Origin: Halobacteriales archaeon QS_5_68_33
Lineage (GTDB): Archaea; Halobacteriota; Halobacteria; Halobacteriales; Haloarculaceae
DNA: 64,000 nt
Assembly (NCBI GenBank): GCA_003023785.1
Contig: PXRS01000032.1
Span: 34,275-98,274, forward strand
Reading direction: 5' to 3'
Part shown: one piece after another, positions 7,211 through 62,750 of the stretch
Layout: each line of letters begins with the position of its first letter
Numbering within the stretch: the first letter of the stretch is position 1
Made by a program: the position numbers and the translations under genes
Notes under the pieces: generated by a model
Databases searched by the model: none
What the model saw: only the letters and a program-made list of their open reading frames with translations
Told to the model about the DNA's origin: nothing

Positions 7211-7449
7211 CTACTCACCGCTGGGGCGCCCTCGCCTATGAACGATCGGATACGCTCGACGGGATCCGGGATCCGGACCAGCGATCTGGGGGGATAGTCG
7301 TGGCGCGCGCTGTCGAGCGTGGCGAGGCGGGACTGGAGGGACCGCCTCGAAGCGAGCGGGGAACGGAGTGACCCGCGAGCGTTTCATCGCGAGACAGCGT
7401 CGCGCGAGGGATGAGCGAGGAAACGGAGTGACCGAGCGAATCGGCTGGG

Positions 7450-9185: not shown

Positions 9186-9311
9186 TCGCACCGTTCGGCA
9201 CGCTCACGGTTCGCTCCGCTCACCGTTCGCATCGAGGCGTTCCCTTCGGTCACGCCTCGCACCGCTCGACAGCGCGCGCCACGGCGGTCGTCTGGAATCG
9301 AAACACCACCC

Positions 9312-9419
9312 TAGTGTTTATCACGAGAGATTCGACGATACCCCGCCAGTCCGGTCCGGAGAAACGCTCTCACCCGGTGACCCGGCCGACTCACCGGTAC
9401 ATGCTCGTGAGAAACACTA
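9312..9419 (-). repeat. Family 2 TIR element, copy 1 (~108 bp)
   Basis: TAGTGTTTATCACGAG...CTCGTGAGAAACACTA; interior is reverse complement of copy at 21528. Confidence 0.85.
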
Positions 9420-9489
9420 CCAACGTCCCCACCCACGAACCGCGAGGTCGACCCGGACGCTGATACCGTCCGGCGACGAAGGTCCGGCG

Positions 9490-10785
9490 ATGACCGACGA
9501 CGAACTCGAAAAGCGGGGGGTCGTCACGGTCTTTCTGCGCCACGAGGCGGCGGTGCTCCTGTTGCGGCGCAGCGCCGAGGTCGGGTCCGACAGCGGCCAG
9601 TGGGGCGGGGTCGCCGGTCACGCGGAGGGGGACCCGGACGGCGCCGCCCGCCGGGAGATCCGCGAGGAGACGGGCCTCGGTGCGGAGGCGGTGACGCTCG
9701 TCCGTGCGGGCGACCCCTTCGAGGCGGCGGACCCGGACCTGGGGACGCCGTGGGTGGTCCACCCGTTCCTCTTCGACGCGGCGACCCGCGCGGTCGAACC
9801 CGACGACGGAACGACGGCCTACGAGTGGGTTCCGCCGACCGAGATCCGCCGGCGCGAGACCGTCCCGGACCTCTGGGGGTCTTATGACCGCGTCCGACCG
9901 ACTATCGAGACGGTCCGGAACGACCGCGAGCACGGGTCGGCGTCCCTCTCCGTCCGCGCGCTCGAGGCCCTCCGCGACGAGGCCGCGCTCGCCGGCGAAT
10001 CGGGGGACGCGACCGACACCTGGCCCGCGCTCGCCGACCTCGCGCGCGACCTCGGAAACGCGCGGCCGGCGATGCCGGTCGTCGAGAACCGGGTCAACCG
10101 GGCGATGGCCGCCGCGAGCGACGAGCGGACCGCCGCGGGCGTCGAACGCGCCGCAGGGGACGAGATAGACCGGGCGCTCGCCGCCGACGAGCGCGCCGCG
10201 GCGCGCGCGGCCGAGCGACTCCCCGCGCGGGTCGCCACCCTCTCGCGGTCGGGCACCGTCCACGGGGCGCTCCGCCGGGTCGACCCCGACGCCGTCCTCG
10301 TCGCGGAGTCCCGGCCCGGTCGGGAGGGGGTCGACACCGCCGAGCGCCTCGCCCGCGAGACGACGGCCGACGTGACGATAACGACCGACGCGGCCTTCGC
10401 CGGGGCGCTCGCCGACGCCGACGCCGAGGCGCTGGTCGTCGGTGCCGACGCGGTCCGCCCGGACGGGAGCGTCCTGAACAAGGTCGGGACCCGCGGGGCG
10501 ACGGCCGCGGCCGCCCGCGAGAAACTGGAGTGCCTCGTCGTCGCCGCGAGCGACAAGGTCCTGCCCGCGGATGGGGACGAAGACGGTCCCGCTCGCGTCG
10601 ACCGCGAGGAGCGCGACCCGGCGGCGGTGTACGACGGCCCGGCCGACGTCGCGGTGGCGAACCCCACCTTCGACCTGACGCCCGCCGACCGCATCGACGC
10701 CGTCGTCACCGAGGACGGCGTTCTCGACGCTGCCGACGTGCGCGAGGTGGCCGACCGACACCGCGACCGGGCCGGCTGGGACTGA
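9490..10785 (+). CDS. NUDIX hydrolase-eIF2B-like (translation initiation factor 2B subunit family) fusion
   Basis: GQWGGVAGHAEGDPDGAARREIREETGL NUDIX box; C-terminal VVGADAVRPDGSVLNKVGTRGATAAAAREKLECLVVAASDKV as in eIF2B/R15P isomerase family. Confidence 0.88.
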   Translation: MTDDELEKRGVVTVFLRHEAAVLLLRRSAEVGSDSGQWGGVAGHAEGDPDGAARREIREETGLGAEAVTLVRAGDPFEAADPDLGTPWVVHPFLFDAATRAVEPDDGTTAYEWVPPTEIRRRETVPDLWGSYDRVRPTIETVRNDREHGSASLSVRALEALRDEAALAGESGDATDTWPALADLARDLGNARPAMPVVENRVNRAMAAASDERTAAGVERAAGDEIDRALAADERAAARAAERLPARVATLSRSGTVHGALRRVDPDAVLVAESRPGREGVDTAERLARETTADVTITTDAAFAGALADADAEALVVGADAVRPDGSVLNKVGTRGATAAAAREKLECLVVAASDKVLPADGDEDGPARVDREERDPAAVYDGPADVAVANPTFDLTPADRIDAVVTEDGVLDAADVREVADRHRDRAGWD

Positions 10786-10860
10786 TACGGTCGGTTGACT
10801 GTGTACCGGTGATTCGCCGGGCGGGCGAATCCCGGAAATGAGTTACAACCGACTGTATCA
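10783..10860 (-). repeat. Family 1 stop-codon palindromic element, copy a
   Basis: TGATACGGTCGGTTG...CAACCGACTGTATCA TIRs; fills convergent 3'-3' gap and supplies both stop codons. Confidence 0.9.
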
Positions 10861-12801
10861 GGAAGGAACGACGGTGATCGTCTTCCCGCGGTCGATGGCT
10901 CGCTCCAGTTCCTCGGCGATGGCCGACCCGCGGGAGACCTGCACCTCGCCGCCCCGCGAGACGGTGGCGGTGAAGAGGTAGTCGTCGTCGGCCTGCATCT
11001 CGACGGTGTCGCCCTCGTAGCCCTCCATCGGGATGAGGACGTGCCGGGAAGTGATCTCGGGGGTAACGACCTCGCCGCCACCGCTGTCACCGGGGCCGCT
11101 CGCCCCGCCCGGTCCCCCGCTTCCGCCGGACCCGCTCCGGCCGCCGGGCTTGTCACTGAACGTCCGCACGTCGATGTCGATGCCCAGCCTGTTCTCCACG
11201 TCCGAGATGCGGCCGCCGCCCTTTCCGATGACCTGCGAGATGTCGTCGTCCTCGACGTACACGACGGCGGTGTTGGGGTCGCGGATCTGCACCTCGACGT
11301 GGCCGCGGGCGATAGAGCGGATCTCGCGCTCGACCTCCTGTTTGGCGAGGCGCTCGGTGCCGCTCTCCTCGCTCTCGGCGTCGCCCAGCGGGACCGTGAC
11401 GACCTGGCGGTTGAAGGTGTAGATCTCGTAGGCGGGCCGCCCGGTCTCGAAGTCGGTGATCGTGATGACCGGCCGGGCCAGGTCCTCCTCCATCAGGCCC
11501 TCGGGGACCTTGACCTCGGTCGCGACGTCGTAGACGGTCTCGATCTCGCCGGCCTCGATGTAGACGACGGTGTCGACGATCTGCGGGATGAGCCCGAGTT
11601 CCACGCGGCCGATGAGCCGCTGGAGGGCGTCGATCCCGCGGGTGGCGTGGACGACGCCGACCATCCCGACGCCCGCCAGTCGCATGTCGGCGAACACCTC
11701 GAAGTCGTCGGTCTTCCTGACCTCGTCGTAGACGGTGTAGTCGGGCCGGACCATCAGAAGCGAGTCGGCCGTCTTGTCCATTCGGCCGCCGAGTTCGGTG
11801 TACTGGGTGACCCGCTCGTCGACCTGCAGGTCGCGGGGTTTCTCCATGGTCTTGACCGCGAACCCCTCGTCGGCGAGATAGCCCGCGACTGCCTGGGCGA
11901 ACGTCGACTTGCCGGCGCCCGGGGATCCGGAGATGAGGACGCCACGCTGGCGTTCCGCGAGGCGCTCGCGCAACTCGTCGGCGTACTCGTAGTCGTCGAG
12001 TTCGGTCTCGACGACGGGCCGGACCGCCGTGATCTCCATCGCGTCCGAGAACGGCGGGCGGGCGATGGCGATGCGCAAGTCCCGGAACTGGACGATGGTC
12101 ATCCCCGGTTCGTCGAGTTCGACGAACCCCTCGGGGGAGGCCCGCGCGCTCTCCTCGACGTCGTGTGCGAGGGATTTGACCGCCGCCTCGGTCATGCGCT
12201 CGTCGCCGACCCGCCCGTAGGTCATCTCGCCGACGGACCCGCGCTTTGCCATCGGTTCCAGCCCCACGCGCAGGTGGACGCTCATCGTGGACTCGTCGAA
12301 GAACTCCTCCAGGTCGAGGCGCTCGACGTCACGACCGTGGGGTTCGAGGTAGAGCACGTCCAAGCCCTTCGCGCGGGCCACCTCGCTCTGGACGACGTCG
12401 CTCGTGACGAGCGTGGCGTCGTACTCGTCGGCGAGGTCGCGGATGATCGCGTCTGCCTTTCCCTCGCCGGCCTCGGGCTGTTCGGTCTCGGCGGGGCGGC
12501 GACCGACGTACTCGACGCTGATCGTGCCGTCCTCGTGCATGTCGGCGAGGCGCTGGAGCTCTTCGAGACCGTCCCAGCCGCGCCGGCGGCCGTCGTTGGC
12601 CTGGGCCTCGAGTTCGCCGACGACTGCCTCGGGGACGTAGACGGTGGCACCGGCGAACCCCTCGCCGGCCGCCGCCGAGTCCGGGTCGGCGTCGGCGTCG
12701 GCTTCGGCGGCTTCGCCGCCTTCTCGTCGCGCCTCCGGCGCGACGCACTGCTCGGACACGCGGCCATCGACGACCACGCTCGTGTCCGGAAGGATGTTCA
12801 T
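10858..12801 (-). CDS. PIN domain-ATPase-KH protein (PINc/VapC family ATPase)
   Basis: N-terminal PIN (ILPDTSVVVDGRV), ISGSPGAGKSTFAQAVAGYL Walker A, C-terminal KH IGKGGGRISDVENRLGIDI. Confidence 0.9.
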   Translation of the reverse strand: MNILPDTSVVVDGRVSEQCVAPEARREGGEAAEADADADPDSAAAGEGFAGATVYVPEAVVGELEAQANDGRRRGWDGLEELQRLADMHEDGTISVEYVGRRPAETEQPEAGEGKADAIIRDLADEYDATLVTSDVVQSEVARAKGLDVLYLEPHGRDVERLDLEEFFDESTMSVHLRVGLEPMAKRGSVGEMTYGRVGDERMTEAAVKSLAHDVEESARASPEGFVELDEPGMTIVQFRDLRIAIARPPFSDAMEITAVRPVVETELDDYEYADELRERLAERQRGVLISGSPGAGKSTFAQAVAGYLADEGFAVKTMEKPRDLQVDERVTQYTELGGRMDKTADSLLMVRPDYTVYDEVRKTDDFEVFADMRLAGVGMVGVVHATRGIDALQRLIGRVELGLIPQIVDTVVYIEAGEIETVYDVATEVKVPEGLMEEDLARPVITITDFETGRPAYEIYTFNRQVVTVPLGDAESEESGTERLAKQEVEREIRSIARGHVEVQIRDPNTAVVYVEDDDISQVIGKGGGRISDVENRLGIDIDVRTFSDKPGGRSGSGGSGGPGGASGPGDSGGGEVVTPEITSRHVLIPMEGYEGDTVEMQADDDYLFTATVSRGGEVQVSRGSAIAEELERAIDRGKTITVVPS

Positions 12802-13438: not shown

Positions 13439-13475
13439 GCGGCGTCATACATCACGGGAGGTCTGTGGGACGGGC

Positions 13476-13556
13476 GATACGGTCGATGTAGATCATTTCC
13501 GGATTTCGTCGAATCGGTCGGCGAAATACCGATAAATCGCCAAACCGGCCGCGTCA
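13476..13556 (+). repeat. Family 1 element, copy b
   Basis: GATACGGTCGATGTAGATCATTTCCGGATTTCGTCGAATCGGTCGGCGAAATACCGATAAATCGCCAAACCGGCCGCGTCA; right TCA is histidine kinase stop. Confidence 0.88.
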
Positions 13557-15833
13557 GTCGTCGGTCACCAGCGTTCCGGTGCCGTCCGGTTCGCCGTCGC
13601 CCGCGGCCAGGGGCAGTTCGACGACCGCGACGGCGCCGCGCTCGTCGTCCCCGTGCCCGTCGGACGGGGCCCACTCCGACCTGTCCTCGAACCAGACGTC
13701 GCCGCCGTATCGGTCTATCATCAACCGCACGAAGTAGAGTCCGAAGCCGATCGAACCTGACTCGTCCGACGTGAACGCCTCCTCGAAGATCTCCTTTTTG
13801 TACTCGTCTTCGACCCCGGGGCCGTTATCGGCGATCTCGACGGTGACGGCGTTGGCTGTGGCGGTGCCATCGACGACGATCTCGACGTGGTCCCGGTCGT
13901 TGTGTTCGATGGCGTTACCGAGGAGGTTCTCGAACACTTCCCCCAGGAAGTCGTCCGCCCGGACCGCCGAGAGGCGGTCGAGGTCGGTCGCGATGTCGAT
14001 ACTGACGTGGTCGTGGCCCCTGCGCATCTTGGTTACTTTCTCCGACAGCATCGCGCCGGGATCGACCGCCCGCAGTTCGACCGCCTCGTCGTCGCCGACG
14101 ACGGTGGTGACGGTACGCACGTTGCGGGTGAGCGCGGTGATATCCGTGACCCAGTCCTCGATAACGTCGACGTGTTCGCTCGCTTCCCCGTCGACGTGCC
14201 CCCGGAGGCCGTCGAGGTGTCCTCGGATCACCTGCATCCCGTTGAGCAGGTCGTGTCGAAGGACGCTGTTGAAAAACTCGATCTGCTCGGTGCGCGCCGC
14301 CAGGAGTTCGCGACTCTCGCGGAGTTCCTGTTCGCTCCCGACGCGGTCGAGGGCGTTTTCCGTCGACGACGCGAGGATTTCCGCCAGTCGCCGCTCCTCG
14401 TCGGTGAACCCGTCGTGGTCGGGTCCGGCGCTGATCCCGATGACGCCGTACCCACCGAGCGGATACAGCAGGGACCCGCCGAGGTTCAGCGAGACCTCGC
14501 CGGTTTCGACCTCGACGGGGTCCCCCAGCATCGGTTCGCCGGACTCGAACACCCGCCAGACGTCGCTGTCTCCCGGCCCGACTGTCACCTCGCTACGGGC
14601 CAACTGGTCCCCGAACGCCGCCTTGAGCGACTCGGCGAAGGCCGCTGGACGCAACACGTCGTCCTCGTCGTCGTACAGCATGGCGCCCGAATAGTGGTAC
14701 CCCAGCAGTTCTTCGGCGGCAGTGACCGAGATCTCGAGCACCTCCTCGGGCGTCTCGGCGGCGAGAAACCGCTGACTGACCGACTGGAGTCGTTCGAGCG
14801 CCTGTTCGCGCCGTTTCCGGATCGAGACGTCCCGGAGGACGACAACCGTCCCGCGAACCCGGTCGTACTGGTCGCTGATCGGGGCGGCGTTCAGGTCGTA
14901 GACTTCGACGCCCTCCCCGGATCCCGCCGTGGCTCCGGGCGGGACGTACTCCCCGTCTTTCGCGGCCGCTCCCAGGATACCGGGCAACAGGTCGTTGACC
15001 GGAACTCCCACCGGGTCAGGCTCGTCGATGAGCATTCTGGCAGCCGGGTTCGTGTCGACGACGACGTCGGAGTCGTCGAGGACGAAGACGGGGTCGTCTA
15101 TCCGTTTCAGGACCACCTCCGGAGCGAGCGGTTCGACGTTCAGGAACTCGTATCGAAACAGCGCAAGCGCGATGAGTACCGATTCGGCGGAGTAAAACAG
15201 GGTATTGAGACGTAGACCCGGGTGGAACTGGATGCCGGCCTCGTAGACCACCGCGCCGACGACGGTGAGCCCGATAGCTCCGGTGATAAGTCCCGTCTGC
15301 TTGCGGTACATGTTCCGCGACGAGATGAGAAACCGGACGAGGAGTCCGGTCCCCACGAACACGCCCACGTAGGCGGACACTATCGCGACCAGATACGCGA
15401 TCCCCTCGGTTCGGGTCGGCAACACCGGGAATGTAAGTCCGTTGACTGTTCTGATCACCACCGGTTTGGTGAACATGTCGACGCCACTGACCGCTGCCAT
15501 GATTGCGAAATAGCCCAGCAGCAGCCGGCGACGCCGCCGCGTCAGCCACTCGTCCCGTCCGGTGTAGGTCACCGCGAACAGCAGAAAAAATCCCACCGCG
15601 AGAAGCCACAACACGTACTCGGCGGCCAACAGCAGGTTGGTCGCTGGGGAATCGGGGACGGCGACCAGCGCGGCCAGGCCCAGTCCCACGACCCCCGGCA
15701 GTCCGGCGATCCCGGCCAACGGGCGGGCAGCCGGATGGTCGCGGTGTTTCAGCGCGACGTACGCGACGCCGAGCCCGGTCACGCCGCCGACCGCCAGCGC
15801 TCCCCCTATCAAGACGGCAACTGGGGAAGTCAT
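13554..15833 (-). CDS. Sensor histidine kinase: N-terminal 7TM, PAS, GAF, HATPase
   Basis: Hydrophobic N-terminal segments; SVLRHDLLNGMQVIRGHLDGL phosphoacceptor box; ENLLGNAIEHND (N box), VEIADNGPGV (G1), GSIGFGLYFVRLMIDRYGGDVW (G2). Confidence 0.92.
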   Translation of the reverse strand: MTSPVAVLIGGALAVGGVTGLGVAYVALKHRDHPAARPLAGIAGLPGVVGLGLAALVAVPDSPATNLLLAAEYVLWLLAVGFFLLFAVTYTGRDEWLTRRRRRLLLGYFAIMAAVSGVDMFTKPVVIRTVNGLTFPVLPTRTEGIAYLVAIVSAYVGVFVGTGLLVRFLISSRNMYRKQTGLITGAIGLTVVGAVVYEAGIQFHPGLRLNTLFYSAESVLIALALFRYEFLNVEPLAPEVVLKRIDDPVFVLDDSDVVVDTNPAARMLIDEPDPVGVPVNDLLPGILGAAAKDGEYVPPGATAGSGEGVEVYDLNAAPISDQYDRVRGTVVVLRDVSIRKRREQALERLQSVSQRFLAAETPEEVLEISVTAAEELLGYHYSGAMLYDDEDDVLRPAAFAESLKAAFGDQLARSEVTVGPGDSDVWRVFESGEPMLGDPVEVETGEVSLNLGGSLLYPLGGYGVIGISAGPDHDGFTDEERRLAEILASSTENALDRVGSEQELRESRELLAARTEQIEFFNSVLRHDLLNGMQVIRGHLDGLRGHVDGEASEHVDVIEDWVTDITALTRNVRTVTTVVGDDEAVELRAVDPGAMLSEKVTKMRRGHDHVSIDIATDLDRLSAVRADDFLGEVFENLLGNAIEHNDRDHVEIVVDGTATANAVTVEIADNGPGVEDEYKKEIFEEAFTSDESGSIGFGLYFVRLMIDRYGGDVWFEDRSEWAPSDGHGDDERGAVAVVELPLAAGDGEPDGTGTLVTDD

Positions 15834-16240: not shown

Positions 16241-16383
16241 TACAACGGGAGTAGGGGCTGGACACTAATAACTCTGTTTTCGACATGTTAGACCGTGACA
16301 GAAGGGATCTGAGTCGGTCGACCCCGCGATGGTGTGTCACAGAAGCGCGGTGGGGACGACCGGGACTGCGGGCCGTGCTCGAA

Positions 16384-16462
16384 CTGTCGGTTGTAAATCA
16401 GTTCCGGATGTCGTCGAACCGGTCGGCGAAATACCGGTAAATCGTTGCAACGGACCGTATCA
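16384..16462 (+). repeat. Family 1 element, copy c
   Basis: CTGTCGGTTGTAAATCAGTTCCGGATGTCGTCGAACCGG...CGGACCGTATCA; right TCA is agmatinase stop. Confidence 0.88.
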
Positions 16463-17827: not shown

Positions 17828-17911
17828 TCGTACGGTCGGTTGCAAGTCATTTCCGGGTTTCGTCGAACCGCCCGGCGAATCACCGGTACACAGTCACAAC
17901 CGACCGCATCA
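17828..17911 (+). repeat. Family 1 element, copy d
   Basis: TCGTACGGTCGGTTGCAAGTCATTTCCGGGTTTCGTCGAACCG...ACAACCGACCGCATCA; right TCA is PhoU-like stop. Confidence 0.88.
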
Positions 17912-21485: not shown

Positions 21486-21527
21486 CCTCCCCCTACGTGC
21501 CGGGTGTTTAGGTCGGTTTCGGCCCCG

Positions 21528-21630
21528 TAGTGTTTCTCGCGAGCATGTACCGGTGAGTCGGTCGGGTCACCGGGTGACAGCGTTTCTCCGGACCGGCGGG
21601 GCATCGTCGGATCGCTCGCGAGAAACACCA
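21528..21630 (+). repeat. Family 2 TIR element, copy 2 (~103 bp)
   Basis: TAGTGTTTCTCGCGAGCATGTACCGGTGAGTCGGTCGGGTCACCGGGTGACAGCGTTTCTCCGGACCGGCGGGGCATCGTCGGATCGCTCGCGAGAAACACCA. Confidence 0.85.
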
Positions 21631-31491: not shown

Positions 31492-33206
31492 CCCGCGAGG
31501 TCGACCGCGAGACCTACGCCGAACTCTACGGCCCGACGACCGGCGACCGGGTCCGACTGGGCGACACCGACCTGTTCGTCGAGGTGGAAGCCGACCTCCG
31601 GACGCCCGGCGACGAGGCGGTCTTCGGCGGCGGGAAGACACTGCGGGACGGCCTCGGGATGTCACCCGGCACGACACAGGCGGAGGGCGCGCTCGACTGG
31701 GTGCTGACCAACGCGCTCGTGCTGGACCCGGTCCTGGGGATCGTCGCCGCCGACATCGGCATCCGCGGCGGTGAGATCGCCGGCGTCGGCAAGGCCGGCA
31801 ACCCCGACACGATGGACGGCGTCGATATGGTCGTCGGCCCGTCGACGGACGTCTACCCCGCCGAGGGAAAGATCGCGACGCCCGGTGGCCTGGACATCCA
31901 CATTCACTTCAACTCCGCACAACTCCACGAGCACGCGCTCGCCTCCGGGATCACGACGATGCTCGGCGGCGGCTACGGCGGCGGCGCGACGACCTGTACC
32001 ACCGGCCCGGAGAACGTCGAGCGGTTCCTCCAGGCCGCCGAGGCGTGGCCGGTCAACGTCGGCTTCTACGGGAAGGGCAACGCCTCGAAGCCCGGGCCGC
32101 TCTACGAACAGGTCGAGGCCGGCGCCTGCGGGCTGAAACTCCACGAGGACTGGGGGTCGATGCCCGCCGCCATCGACACCTGCCTCGACGTCGCCGAGGA
32201 CGAAAACGTCCAGGTCTGCATGCACACGGACACTCTCAACGAGGCCGGGTTCGTCGAGAACACGTTCGCCGCCGTCGACGGCCGGACGATGCACCTCTTT
32301 CACATCGAGGGCGCGGGCGGCGGCCACGCGCCGGACATCATGGAGATGGTCGGCCAGCCCAACATGCTGCCCTCCTCGACGAACCCGTCGATGCCGTACA
32401 CGGTCAATACGTTCGACGAGCACCTCGACATGGTGATGGTCTGTCACCACCTCAACCCGGACGTCCCCGAGGACGTCGCCTTCGCCGAGTCGCGCGTGCG
32501 AGCGGAAACCATCGGCGCCGAGGACGTCCTCCACGACATGGGGGCCATCTCGATGATGACCTCCGACTCCCAGGCGATGGGCCGGATGGCGGAGGTGATC
32601 TGCCGGACGTGGCAGACCGCCTCGAAGATGAAAGCGGCCCGGGGGACTCTCCCGGCGGACGAGGCCGCCGACACACACGAGGAGGCGGACAACGTCCGGG
32701 TCAAGCGCTACCTCGCCAAGCACACGATAAACCCCGCTATCTCGGCGGGTATCGACGAGTACGTCGGGACGCTCGAACCCGGGAAACTCGCGGACGTGGT
32801 GCTGTACGAGCCCGCTTTCTTCGGGATCAAGCCCGCGATGACGTTCAAGGGCGGGTTCCCGGTCTACTCGGAGATGGGCGAGGCCAACGGCTCGCTGATG
32901 ACCTGCGAACCGGTCGTGCAGCGCCCGCGTGCGGGGGCGGTCGGCAAGGCGAGACACGCGCTCTCGCTGTCGTTCGTCAGCCCCGCCGCGGCCGAGGCGG
33001 ACGTCGGCGAGAAATACGGCCTCGACTCGCCGGTCGTGCCCGTCTCGGGCGCTCGCACGCCCGATAAGGGCGACATGCACTACAACGACTACTGCCCGGA
33101 CGACATCGAGGTCGACGCCGAGACGTTCGAGGTGCGGGTCGACGGCGAGCCGGTCGCGTGCGAACCGAGCGAGGAACTCCCGCTCGCACAGCGGTACATG
33201 CTTTGA
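31488..33206 (+). CDS. ureC: Urease alpha subunit
   Basis: [39 protein letters not shown] (carbamylated Lys); MCHHLNP region. Confidence 0.97.
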
Positions 33207-39691: not shown

Positions 39692-41194
39692 ATGGCAACC
39701 GAGAGTCCCGACGTACCCGACCCGTATCCCGAGTTCCTCGCCCACGTCCGCCGGGTATCGTACCTGAACGACGCCGGGAGCGTGCTGGGCTGGGACCAGC
39801 AGGTGACCATGCCCGAGAGCGGCACGCCCGCCCGCTCGAAGCAGTCGGCCGCGCTCTCGTCGGTTACCCACGACCTGCTGACCGACGAGCGCGTCGGCGA
39901 GTGGCTCGACGACCTCGCCGAGGCCGACCTCGCGGCCGACCGGCGGGCGGTCGTCCGGGAAGTCCGCCGCGAGCACGAGCGCGCCGCGAGCGTCCCCGAG
40001 GAACTGGTCTCCGAGATCTCCGAGACGGCCTCGAACGCCCTCCCCGTCTGGGAACAGGCGAAAGCCGAGGACGACTTCGAGGCGTTCGCGCCCACCTTAG
40101 AGGAGATGGTCGAACTGAAACGCGAGTACGCGGCGGCGATCGACCCGGACCGCGACCCCTACGCGGTGCTGTTCGAGGAGTACGAACCCTACCTCGGGCT
40201 GGACACCGCCGAGCGGGTCCTCGAACGCTTGCGCGACGAACTCGTCCCGCTGATCGAGGAGGTCGAGGCGAGCGACGTCGACCTCGCGGACCCGTTCCCT
40301 GGCGAGTACGACCCCGACACCCAGGAGAAACTCGTCCGGACGGCGCTGGACGAACTGGGTTACAACTGGGAGCGCGGCCGCCTGGACACGGCGCCCCACC
40401 CCTTCTCGACGGGAACCCAGTTCGACGCCCGCGTAACGACGCGGTTCGACCCCGCGGACCCCCTCGGCGCGCTCGGGTCGACGATCCACGAGTTCGGCCA
40501 CGCCACCTACACGCTGGGGCTGCCCGACGACCAGTACGGAACGCCGCTGGGCGAGTCCCGCGACCTCTCGGTCCACGAGTCACAGTCGCGGCTCTGGGAG
40601 AACCACGTCGGCCGCTCGCGGGCCTTCGCCGAGTACTTCACCCCGCGGGTGAACGACCACCTCGCGACCGACGTCTCCCCCCGCGAGTTCTACGAGGCGG
40701 CAAACCGGATCTACCCGGACAACCCGATCCGCGTCGAGGCCGACGAACTCACCTACCACATGCACATCATCCTCCGGTTCGAGATCGAGCGTGACCTGAT
40801 CTCGGGCGACCTCGACGTCTCGGAGGTGCCGGCGGTCTGGAACGACAGGATGGCGGAGTACCTCGGGGTCCGCCCGGAGGGCGCGGGCGAGGGCTGTCTC
40901 CAGGACATCCACTGGACCCACGGCAACTTCGGCTACTTCCCCACCTACTCGCTGGGCAGCGTCCTCGCGGCGCAACTGTACGCCAGCGCCGCGGAGGAGG
41001 TCGGCGGGCTCGAGGAGGGGATCCGCGAGGGCGAGTTCGACGCGCTCCACGAGTGGCTCACCGAGAACGTCCACCGCCACGGCTGTCGCTACGAGACCGA
41101 CGACCTCGTCCGGGAGGCCACCGGCGAGGCCTTCACCGCGGACCACTTCCTGGAGTACGCTCGCCGGAAGTTCGGCGACCTCTACGAACTCTGA
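39692..41194 (+). CDS. M32 carboxypeptidase
   Basis: TIHEFGHATYTLGL (HExxH-type site as HEFGH); ESQSRLWENHVGRS; HIILRFEIERDLISGDL. Confidence 0.95.
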   Translation: MATESPDVPDPYPEFLAHVRRVSYLNDAGSVLGWDQQVTMPESGTPARSKQSAALSSVTHDLLTDERVGEWLDDLAEADLAADRRAVVREVRREHERAASVPEELVSEISETASNALPVWEQAKAEDDFEAFAPTLEEMVELKREYAAAIDPDRDPYAVLFEEYEPYLGLDTAERVLERLRDELVPLIEEVEASDVDLADPFPGEYDPDTQEKLVRTALDELGYNWERGRLDTAPHPFSTGTQFDARVTTRFDPADPLGALGSTIHEFGHATYTLGLPDDQYGTPLGESRDLSVHESQSRLWENHVGRSRAFAEYFTPRVNDHLATDVSPREFYEAANRIYPDNPIRVEADELTYHMHIILRFEIERDLISGDLDVSEVPAVWNDRMAEYLGVRPEGAGEGCLQDIHWTHGNFGYFPTYSLGSVLAAQLYASAAEEVGGLEEGIREGEFDALHEWLTENVHRHGCRYETDDLVREATGEAFTADHFLEYARRKFGDLYEL

Positions 41195-41275
41195 TACGGC
41201 CGGTTGTAAACCATCTCCGGATTTCGTCGAATCGGTCGGCGAAATACCGGTACATCGTCACGACCGACCGTACGA
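41192..41275 (+). repeat. Family 1 element, copy e
   Basis: TGATACGGCCGGTTGTAAACCATCTCCGGATTTCGTCGAATCGG...CGACCGACCGTACGA; left TGA is M32 peptidase stop. Confidence 0.9.
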
Positions 41276-44581: not shown

Positions 44582-44643
44582 TCCCTGCGAAACGCCTAAA
44601 AGGATTTCGAACGGGGCGCAGTGCCGGGATGCGAGTCAGCGCG

Positions 44644-44718
44644 GCGGTGTAAATCAGTTCCGGATTTCGTCGAATCGGTCGGCAAAATACCGGTACATCG
44701 GTACAACCGACCGTATCA
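44644..44718 (+). repeat. Family 1 element, copy f (left TIR lost)
   Basis: GCGGTGTAAATCAGTTCCGGATTTCGTCGAATCGGTCGGCAAAATACCGGTACATCGGTACAACCGACCGTATCA. Confidence 0.85.
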
Positions 44719-54150: not shown

Positions 54151-54234
54151 TCATACGGTCGGCTGTACCGATGTACCGGTATTTCGCCGACCGATTCGAC
54201 GAAATCCGGAAACGATTTACAACCGACCGTATCA
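54151..54234 (-). repeat. Family 1 element, copy g
   Basis: TCATACGGTCGGCTGTACCGATGTACCGGTATTTCGCCGACCGATTCGACGAAATCCGGAAACGATTTACAACCGACCGTATCA; right TCA is stop of 59-aa zinc-finger gene. Confidence 0.9.
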
Positions 54235-54411: not shown

Positions 54412-54547
54412 TACCAGTCGGTGGGACTCCAGACGATAAGTTCTTTCTCTCTAACGAACGCGAACGGGCTTTCCAGACCACAGGTGGCCGGACGAAACGC
54501 TACGCGGCGGCAGCGACCGGAAAAAGCGACGTTCCCGGACCCGGTTT

Positions 54548-54610
54548 CGTTTCCGGATCTCGTCGAACCGGCCAGCGAGACACCGGTAAATCGGTACAAC
54601 CGACCGTATG
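54548..54610 (+). repeat. Family 1 element, copy h (5'-truncated)
   Basis: CGTTTCCGGATCTCGTCGAACCGGCCAGCGAGACACCGGTAAATCGGTACAACCGACCGTATG. Confidence 0.8.
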
Positions 54611-54611
54611 A

Positions 54612-59155: not shown

Positions 59156-59755
59156 ATGCAGGGGGAACCCGCCGTCGTCGTCTGCCGACTGGGCCACCGC
59201 CCCGGCCGCGACGACCGCATGACGACCCACGTCGGCCTGACCGCGCGGGCGCTGGGCGCGGACCGCGTCTTCCTCCCGACGGACGCCACCGGGTCGGCCG
59301 ACACCGTCCGGGACATCACCGACCGCTTCGGTGGCCCGTTCGAGGTGGAGGTGGGGTCACCCATCTCGGAACTCCGCGAGTGGGACGGCACGATCGCCCA
59401 CCTGACGATGTACGGCGAACCCGTCCAGCGGGTGGCCGGCGAGGTCAGGGAGACGTACGCTGGCGGCGACCCTCTCCTCGTCGCCGTCGGCGCCGAGAAG
59501 GTCCCCTTCGAGGTGTACGAGCGCGCCGACTGGAACGTCGCGGTGACGAACCAGCCCCACTCCGAGGTGGCGGGGCTCGCGGTGTTCCTCGACCGCCTCT
59601 TCGAGGGGCGCGAACTCGACCGGGAGCGGGCCGACGCGGACAGAGTCGTCGTTCCCCAGGAGAGCGGCAAGCGCGTCGAACAGCGGGACGGGAACGCCGG
59701 CGCGAACCCCGGGGGGACGAACGCCGAGGACGCCGGGACACCCGACGGAGGCTGA
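59156..59755 (+). CDS. trm56: tRNA (cytidine(56)-2'-O)-methyltransferase
   Basis: VCRLGHRPGRDDRMTTHVGLTARALGADRVF; HLTMYGEPV; VAVGAEKVPFEVYERADWNVAVTNQPHSEVAGLAVFLDRLFEG. Confidence 0.95.
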   Translation: MQGEPAVVVCRLGHRPGRDDRMTTHVGLTARALGADRVFLPTDATGSADTVRDITDRFGGPFEVEVGSPISELREWDGTIAHLTMYGEPVQRVAGEVRETYAGGDPLLVAVGAEKVPFEVYERADWNVAVTNQPHSEVAGLAVFLDRLFEGRELDRERADADRVVVPQESGKRVEQRDGNAGANPGGTNAEDAGTPDGG

Positions 59756-59836
59756 TACTGCCGGCTGTACCGATGTACCGGTATTTCGCCGACCGGTTCG
59801 ACGAAATCCGGAACTGATCTACAGCCGACCGTATGA
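59753..59836 (-). repeat. Family 1 element, copy i
   Basis: TGATACTGCCGGCTGTACCGATGTACCGGTATTTCGCCGACCGGTTCGACGAAATCCGGAACTGATCTACAGCCGACCGTATGA; left TGA is trm56 stop. Confidence 0.9.
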
Positions 59837-61979: not shown

Positions 61980-62669
61980 ATGCGCGTCGCGATAGTCACG
62001 GTGGGGGACGAACTCCTCGTCGGCGACACGGTGAACACGAACGCCGCCTGGCTCGGTCGGCGACTGGACCAGCGCGGCGTGACTGTGGCCCGCGTGACGG
62101 TCCTGCCCGACGACGTCGGGGAGATCGCCCGCGTCGTCAACGAGTACCGCGCCGCCTGCGACGCGGTGCTCGTGACCGGCGGGCTCGGCCCCACCCACGA
62201 CGACCTGACGATGGAGGGCGTCGCCGCCGCGTTCGGCCGCGACGTCGCCGCCAGCGACGAGGTCCGCGAGTGGCTGGAGGCCGACGGCTACGCGGCCAGC
62301 GACCTCGCGGCGGGCACGACCGAGATCCCCGAGGGCGCACGCATGCTCGAAAACCCCGAGGGCGTCGCTCCGGGGTGTGTCATCGGCGGCGTCTACGTCC
62401 TCCCGGGCGTGCCCGACGAGATGAAGGCCATGTTCGAGACGGTTGCCGACGAGTTCGAGGGCGAGCGCCAGTTCTCGGCAACGGTCACGGCCGCCGAACC
62501 CGAGAGCGCGCTCCTGGACCGGATCGCCTCCGTGCGCAAGGAGTTCGACGTCACCGTGGGGAGCTACCCCGGCGAGAACGTCCGGCTGAAGGTCCGCGGT
62601 CCGGACGAGGGTGTCGTCGAGGAAACGGCCGCGTGGCTGCGCGAACGCGTCGAGTCACCCGAGGAGTGA
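61980..62669 (+). CDS. CinA/MoaB-like molybdopterin-binding domain protein
   Basis: VAIVTVGDELLVGDTVNTNAAWLGRRLDQRGV; LVTGGLGPTHDDLTMEGVAAAFGR; VYVLPGVPDEMKAMFE. Confidence 0.93.
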   Translation: MRVAIVTVGDELLVGDTVNTNAAWLGRRLDQRGVTVARVTVLPDDVGEIARVVNEYRAACDAVLVTGGLGPTHDDLTMEGVAAAFGRDVAASDEVREWLEADGYAASDLAAGTTEIPEGARMLENPEGVAPGCVIGGVYVLPGVPDEMKAMFETVADEFEGERQFSATVTAAEPESALLDRIASVRKEFDVTVGSYPGENVRLKVRGPDEGVVEETAAWLRERVESPEE

Positions 62670-62750
62670 TGCGGTCGGTCGTCAATCAGTTCCGGATTTC
62701 GTCGAACAGGTCGGCGAGATACCGGTACATCGGGACAACCGACCGTACGA
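62667..62750 (+). repeat. Family 1 element, copy j
   Basis: TGATGCGGTCGGTCGTCAATCAGTTCCGGATTTCGTCGAACAGGTCGGCGAGATACCGGTACATCGGGACAACCGACCGTACGA; left TGA is CinA-like stop. Confidence 0.9.

Follow-up and report, generated by a model that had tools for sequence, protein, structure and literature searches.

A copy of a mobile palindrome family fills the interval between two convergent haloarchaeal genes and bears both of their stop codons at its ends

MITEs of haloarchaea are mobilised in trans (PMC3119063). Members of the IS1031 subgroup of the IS5 family use TNA targets, TGA included, and generate a 3-bp duplication (PMC12016507), and in E. coli the REPs located within 15 nt of stop codons affect translation (PMC12306157). 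The intergenic terminators of Haloferax are T-stretches, and one test of a hairpin on its own yielded 59% termination (PMC7237163). We compared with these systems a palindromic interval of Halobacteriales archaeon QS_5_68_33, located between two convergent genes of contig PXRS01000032.1; the window is the whole stretch of 64,000 nucleotides that was analysed, and coordinates are positions within it unless a contig is named.

The plus-strand gene (9490-10785) codes for a protein of 431 aa with NUDIX and IF-2B (eIF2B-like) domains and the minus-strand gene (10858-12801) for a PIN-domain ATPase of 647 aa with a T2SSE-type ATPase domain, as given by the open reading frames and their Pfam matches. 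Both identities agree with the first-pass annotation except for the KH domain that it had added to the second protein, which was absent from the Pfam matches at E ≤ 0.001. The whole 3'-3' interval had also been described as one single element, and these coordinates hold: a near-perfect palindrome, of 78 bases when both stops are counted in (10783-10860), extends from the TGA stop codon of the NUDIX/IF-2B gene (10783-10785, +) to a TCA (10858-10860) which reads TGA on the minus strand and ends the PIN-ATPase gene. The predicted fold of the 78 bases reached -47.5 kcal/mol (z -8.4), with -41.8 kcal/mol for the opposite strand (z -7.5), and none of 200 shuffles was equally stable. No structured RNA family of Rfam matched the interval. 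Elsewhere in the window, positions 31779-31923 (-) scored above the gathering score of Rfam 5_ureB_sRNA (RF02514); in this archaeal genome, the match may be to coding sequence and due to chance.

Rather than a one-off terminator, the interval is a member of a large family of mobile palindromes, whose copy number is far above chance. The arm TGATACGGTCGGTTG, with two mismatches or fewer, occurs 621 times (313 + 308) in the 2.42-Mb assembly, compared to once for the reversed control, and 143 copies, about one per 5 kb, were found in the 737 kb of stretches of this assembly on which the census of copies and genes is based. Most of the measured copies are 84 bp long, with an additional subfamily of 80 bp to which the window copy belongs, being 2 bases short, and the ends are uniform across the high-copy family. 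The window contains ten copies. Terminal triplets coincide with the stop of a minus-strand gene in the copies at 13475-13557 (-; terminal TGA, gene 13554-15833), 16379-16462 (-; gene ending at 16460, far end TCG) and 17828-17911 (-; gene ending at 17909, far end TCG), and with the stop of a plus-strand gene in those at 41192-41275 (-; gene 39692-41194, far end CGA), 59753-59836 (+; TGA at both ends, gene 59156-59755) and 62667-62750 (-; gene ending at 62669, far end CGA). The copy at 54151-54234 (+) exhibits matching target triplets, TCA and TCA, at no called stop; one arm is decayed in the copies at 44634-44718 (-), also at no called stop, and 54536-54611 (-). Unrelated to the palindrome, the window also holds a 70-bp dispersed repeat (9351-9420 and 21527-21596, 96% complementary, in opposite orientation) and a GC-rich inverted pair of 84 bp (7299-7382 and 9200-9283, 85% complementary).

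Other haloarchaeal genera also carry related copies; Halomicrobium, Natronosalvus and Natronococcus are among them, as are MAGs named Haloarcula and Halovenus. In Halomicrobium katesii, which can be cultured, one copy sits on a stop codon. The viral contigs gave no match to the family, nor did the plasmid collection searched in distant mode, and a literature search with the arm sequence returned only papers that were unrelated, as judged by title. The core GATTTACCGG...CCGGAACAGACTTAC was kept in copies from two genomes (G067 and G023) with other arms, TAGTGATTACTGTA and TAGTGACCGTTGTA, both arms having changed together, and most of these copies were again flanked by matching TNA triplets. Across the loci L198-L217, which include a third genome (G054), the terminal arms TAGTGATTACTGTA, TAGTGGTTGCTGTA, TAGTGACCGTTGTA and TACGGATGATTGTA were found on the common core, each time on both sides, which looks like arm swapping. 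A sister element with arms TACTGCCGGCTGTA, core CGCCGCCCCGGGGCGGCG and the same TNA flanks was seen in G000 (C77:25288-25386), where a leftover arm of the main family lies beside it, and in the loci L219, L221 and L230.

The target triplets were most clearly read in a related genome with near-identical young copies (G003), where all 20 of the copies examined were flanked by identical triplets on both sides: TGA/TGA, TCA/TCA (the same as TGA/TGA read on the other strand) and, once, TAA/TAA. In G000, the TGA/TGA and TCA/TCA copies amounted to 40 cases versus 11 mixed ones (G/C triplet pairs, p = 7e-6). An empty site was also identified: three congeners devoid of the element (85-89% DNA identity) share, down to the codon, the end of the 306-aa gene that precedes the copy at locus L147 (...TAC GAG/GAA TGA). 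The TGA was therefore already the stop of this gene before the insertion duplicated it. Judged from these flanks and this site, insertion of the element yields a 3-bp TNA target duplication. The first-pass annotation had stated that the element provides both stop codons of the pair; the stops are indeed its terminal triplets, but they are not strictly provided by it, the TGA being the target triplet that is duplicated on insertion.

Exact coincidence with stop codons is characteristic of the family. With genes called by a home-made codon-usage caller, 77 of 706 genes in the 737 kb (11%, about one in nine) end on an element-terminal triplet. For the near-full copies, 42 of the 86 ends that face a stop fall exactly on a stop codon; this count includes 12 ends displaced by 2 nt solely owing to the model, which lacks 2 nt there, and the remaining offsets are scattered. 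The stop-anchored share was 23/42, compared to 19% expected from the available TGAs (p = 3e-7), and in a further set of 20 loci, selected largely on sequence similarity, 10 of the 17 copies with matching triplets were stop-anchored (counted from the tabulated loci). Of the 143 copies, a single one falls within a called gene, which is a doubtful short ORF. Copies are over-represented in convergent gaps (23/68 vs 80/455, p = 0.003) and under-represented in divergent ones (7/68 vs 123/455, p = 0.002); many copies are found in tandem gaps or distant from any stop. The stop-anchored share was larger in the old family (33/59) than in the young family of G003 (5/20), p = 0.02 to 0.03 in what is a weak comparison of ages. 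Because this share is only 5/20 in the young family, we infer that copies insert at any TNA and that selective survival, rather than targeting, accounts for the enrichment at stops.

The ends of both genes were then compared with those of relatives. The PIN-ATPase orthologues have the identical stop residue in 28 of 29 relatives and the NUDIX/IF-2B orthologues end at a median of +2 residues (28 relatives). The refuting condition named with the initial reading, orthologues with long C-terminal extensions, therefore falls away, and truncation of either gene by the element is excluded, the C-termini of the orthologues lying at essentially the same residues. By this comparison both genes of the window have kept their ancestral C-termini. 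No PIN homologue was found in the flanking 1.5 kb of the NUDIX gene in any of the 29 relatives, so the NUDIX-PIN pair is a newer junction. Just 3' of the stop of the NUDIX/IF-2B orthologue, three relatives (L011, L021 and L025) have in common the motif GTTACCCCC[TA]CCGAGCCCC...TGTGACGAG, possibly another 3'-end element.

We consider it very probable that the interval represents a fully palindromic, non-coding transposable element of the MITE kind, of about 84 bp, which inserts at TNA and preserves stops, the window copy probably having come from two copies. The element inserts at TNA, mostly TGA, and duplicates the triplet, as the matching triplets and the empty site in a relative show; where the target is the TGA stop of a gene, the stop is kept and the protein is unchanged. 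Insertions at stops would survive and others would be lost, a step for which the near-absence from genes, the depletion of divergent gaps and the enrichment at stops give partial proof. Both window genes have retained their ancestral ends. Two copies, one at the stop of each gene, probably recombined, the DNA between them being lost or distant genes being joined, and the RNA hairpin may secondarily influence transcript 3' ends on both strands.

The origin of the double stop can be read in more than one way, the window copy's own insertion event not being directly visible because its flanking triplets do not match. The TGA ... TCA configuration is a minority type with 10 cases, the reverse TCA ... 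TGA having a single one, and both stops lie on element ends in 5 of 126 convergent pairs, more rarely than a single stop does. Doublets with one triplet in common occur, and one of the five pairs, ValS-DUF1405, carries two such copies; that pair is ancestral, its relatives having similar gene ends and other spacers. The window copy is probably the product of recombination or deletion involving two copies that each sat on a stop. A single insertion at one stop, followed by a base change or a palindrome-guided correction from TGA to TCA, would account for the excess of TGA ... TCA (10 vs 1), which correction together with selection on the used stop predicts. We nevertheless find this unlikely, since the PIN end falls on the conserved terminal residue (28/29 relatives) and the NUDIX end is the ancestral one, so that both triplets look like original stops and a coincidence would be needed.

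Bidirectional termination, which the first-pass annotation had proposed, may be a property of the element, a reading that the present evidence neither establishes nor rules against. An archaeal intrinsic terminator with a 3' T-tract was rejected, as the window element has no T-tract, T4+ is present in only 4 of 77 stop-anchored copies, and downstream T-runs are not enriched (6/77 at stop-anchored copies vs 79/629). In a broader form, the element would be a functional two-way terminator or a stabiliser of mRNA 3' ends, selected at the 3' ends of genes, with mobility only as its spreading route; from the sequence data we rate this as possible, though on the unlikely side. The very stable predicted hairpin on both strands, the termination of about 59% that Haloferax hairpins can reach, the convergent and divergent gap biases and the larger stop share of the old family (p = 0.02) are all in line with such a role, but the loss of harmful insertions explains the placement bias equally well, most copies have no T-tract inside or after them, and many lie in tandem gaps or far from stops, with only 23 of the 69 copies with clear context in convergent pairs. 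The arm mutations are moreover uncompensated: Watson-Crick pairing was seen for 13 of 98 rare arm changes overall and 2 of 42 in the outer stem, and no compensatory change was seen within the family. As the copies are placed by transposition, their position is no evidence for a terminator role. A repeat of the REP/BIME type moved by TnpA-REP, an IS200/IS605-like single-strand transposase, would likewise be a high-copy extragenic palindrome near gene 3' ends, at times in doublets, as REP/BIME/REPIN sequences are. IS200/IS605-type elements, however, make no target duplication (PMC3119063), and the duplication in 20 of 20 young copies led us to reject this origin, which we hold to be highly improbable; the exact coincidence with stop codons and the longer palindrome also set the family apart from REP/BIME/REPIN, and no evidence of a TnpA-REP was found.

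The mobile element of the MITE kind thus remains our preferred reading, and it indicates that mobile DNA can fill gene ends harmlessly when the target triplet is a stop codon that is then duplicated. For about 11% of the sampled genes, the 3' untranslated region starts in mobile-element sequence, and a hairpin may fill a 3'-3' gap exactly without having evolved as a terminator. It is a speculative and quite improbable extension that the mobile palindrome serves as the standard 3' end for a large part of a haloarchaeal gene set, its hairpin acting as a transferable two-way signal for 3' ends that is retained above all at positions where it closes a gene. With hundreds of copies in several genera as natural replicates, the family allows one to ask whether a stem devoid of a T-tract ends transcription in haloarchaea.

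Compared with the described systems, the element combines known traits. Its TNA target with an exclusive 3-bp repeat is that of the IS1031 subgroup, but the published terminal repeat GAACCTGTCTAGTATCT (ISLrh) is unlike its own, TACGGTCGGTTG. In a limited search of the PF01609 (DDE_Tnp_1) transposase loci of 8 genomes, no autonomous element with these terminal repeats and no link to an IS1031-subgroup DDE transposase with a related terminal repeat were found, and arm pairs at IS length in the 737 kb showed no preferred spacing. The SMR-A of Haloquadratum (roughly 110 bp, with prominent inverted repeats, tens of copies and no known transposase) is similar in appearance but makes no target duplication and targets other mobile elements (PMC3119063). 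Because this search gave no transposase with matching ends, we describe the element as MITE-like and do not assign it to a named family; it is known in kind, by its TNA target as in the IS1031 group. With the haloarchaeal MITEs, for example those of Haloquadratum walsbyi (PMC3119063), it has in common a short non-coding sequence, terminal inverted repeats, a target duplication of fixed length (3-bp TNA, in the young copies and at the empty site) and many copies, the 84-bp palindrome being too short for a transposase. It differs from them in that the PF01609 loci and the arm pairs revealed no partner transposon, and in that the whole element, of only about 84 bp, is palindromic and carries swappable arms on a conserved core.
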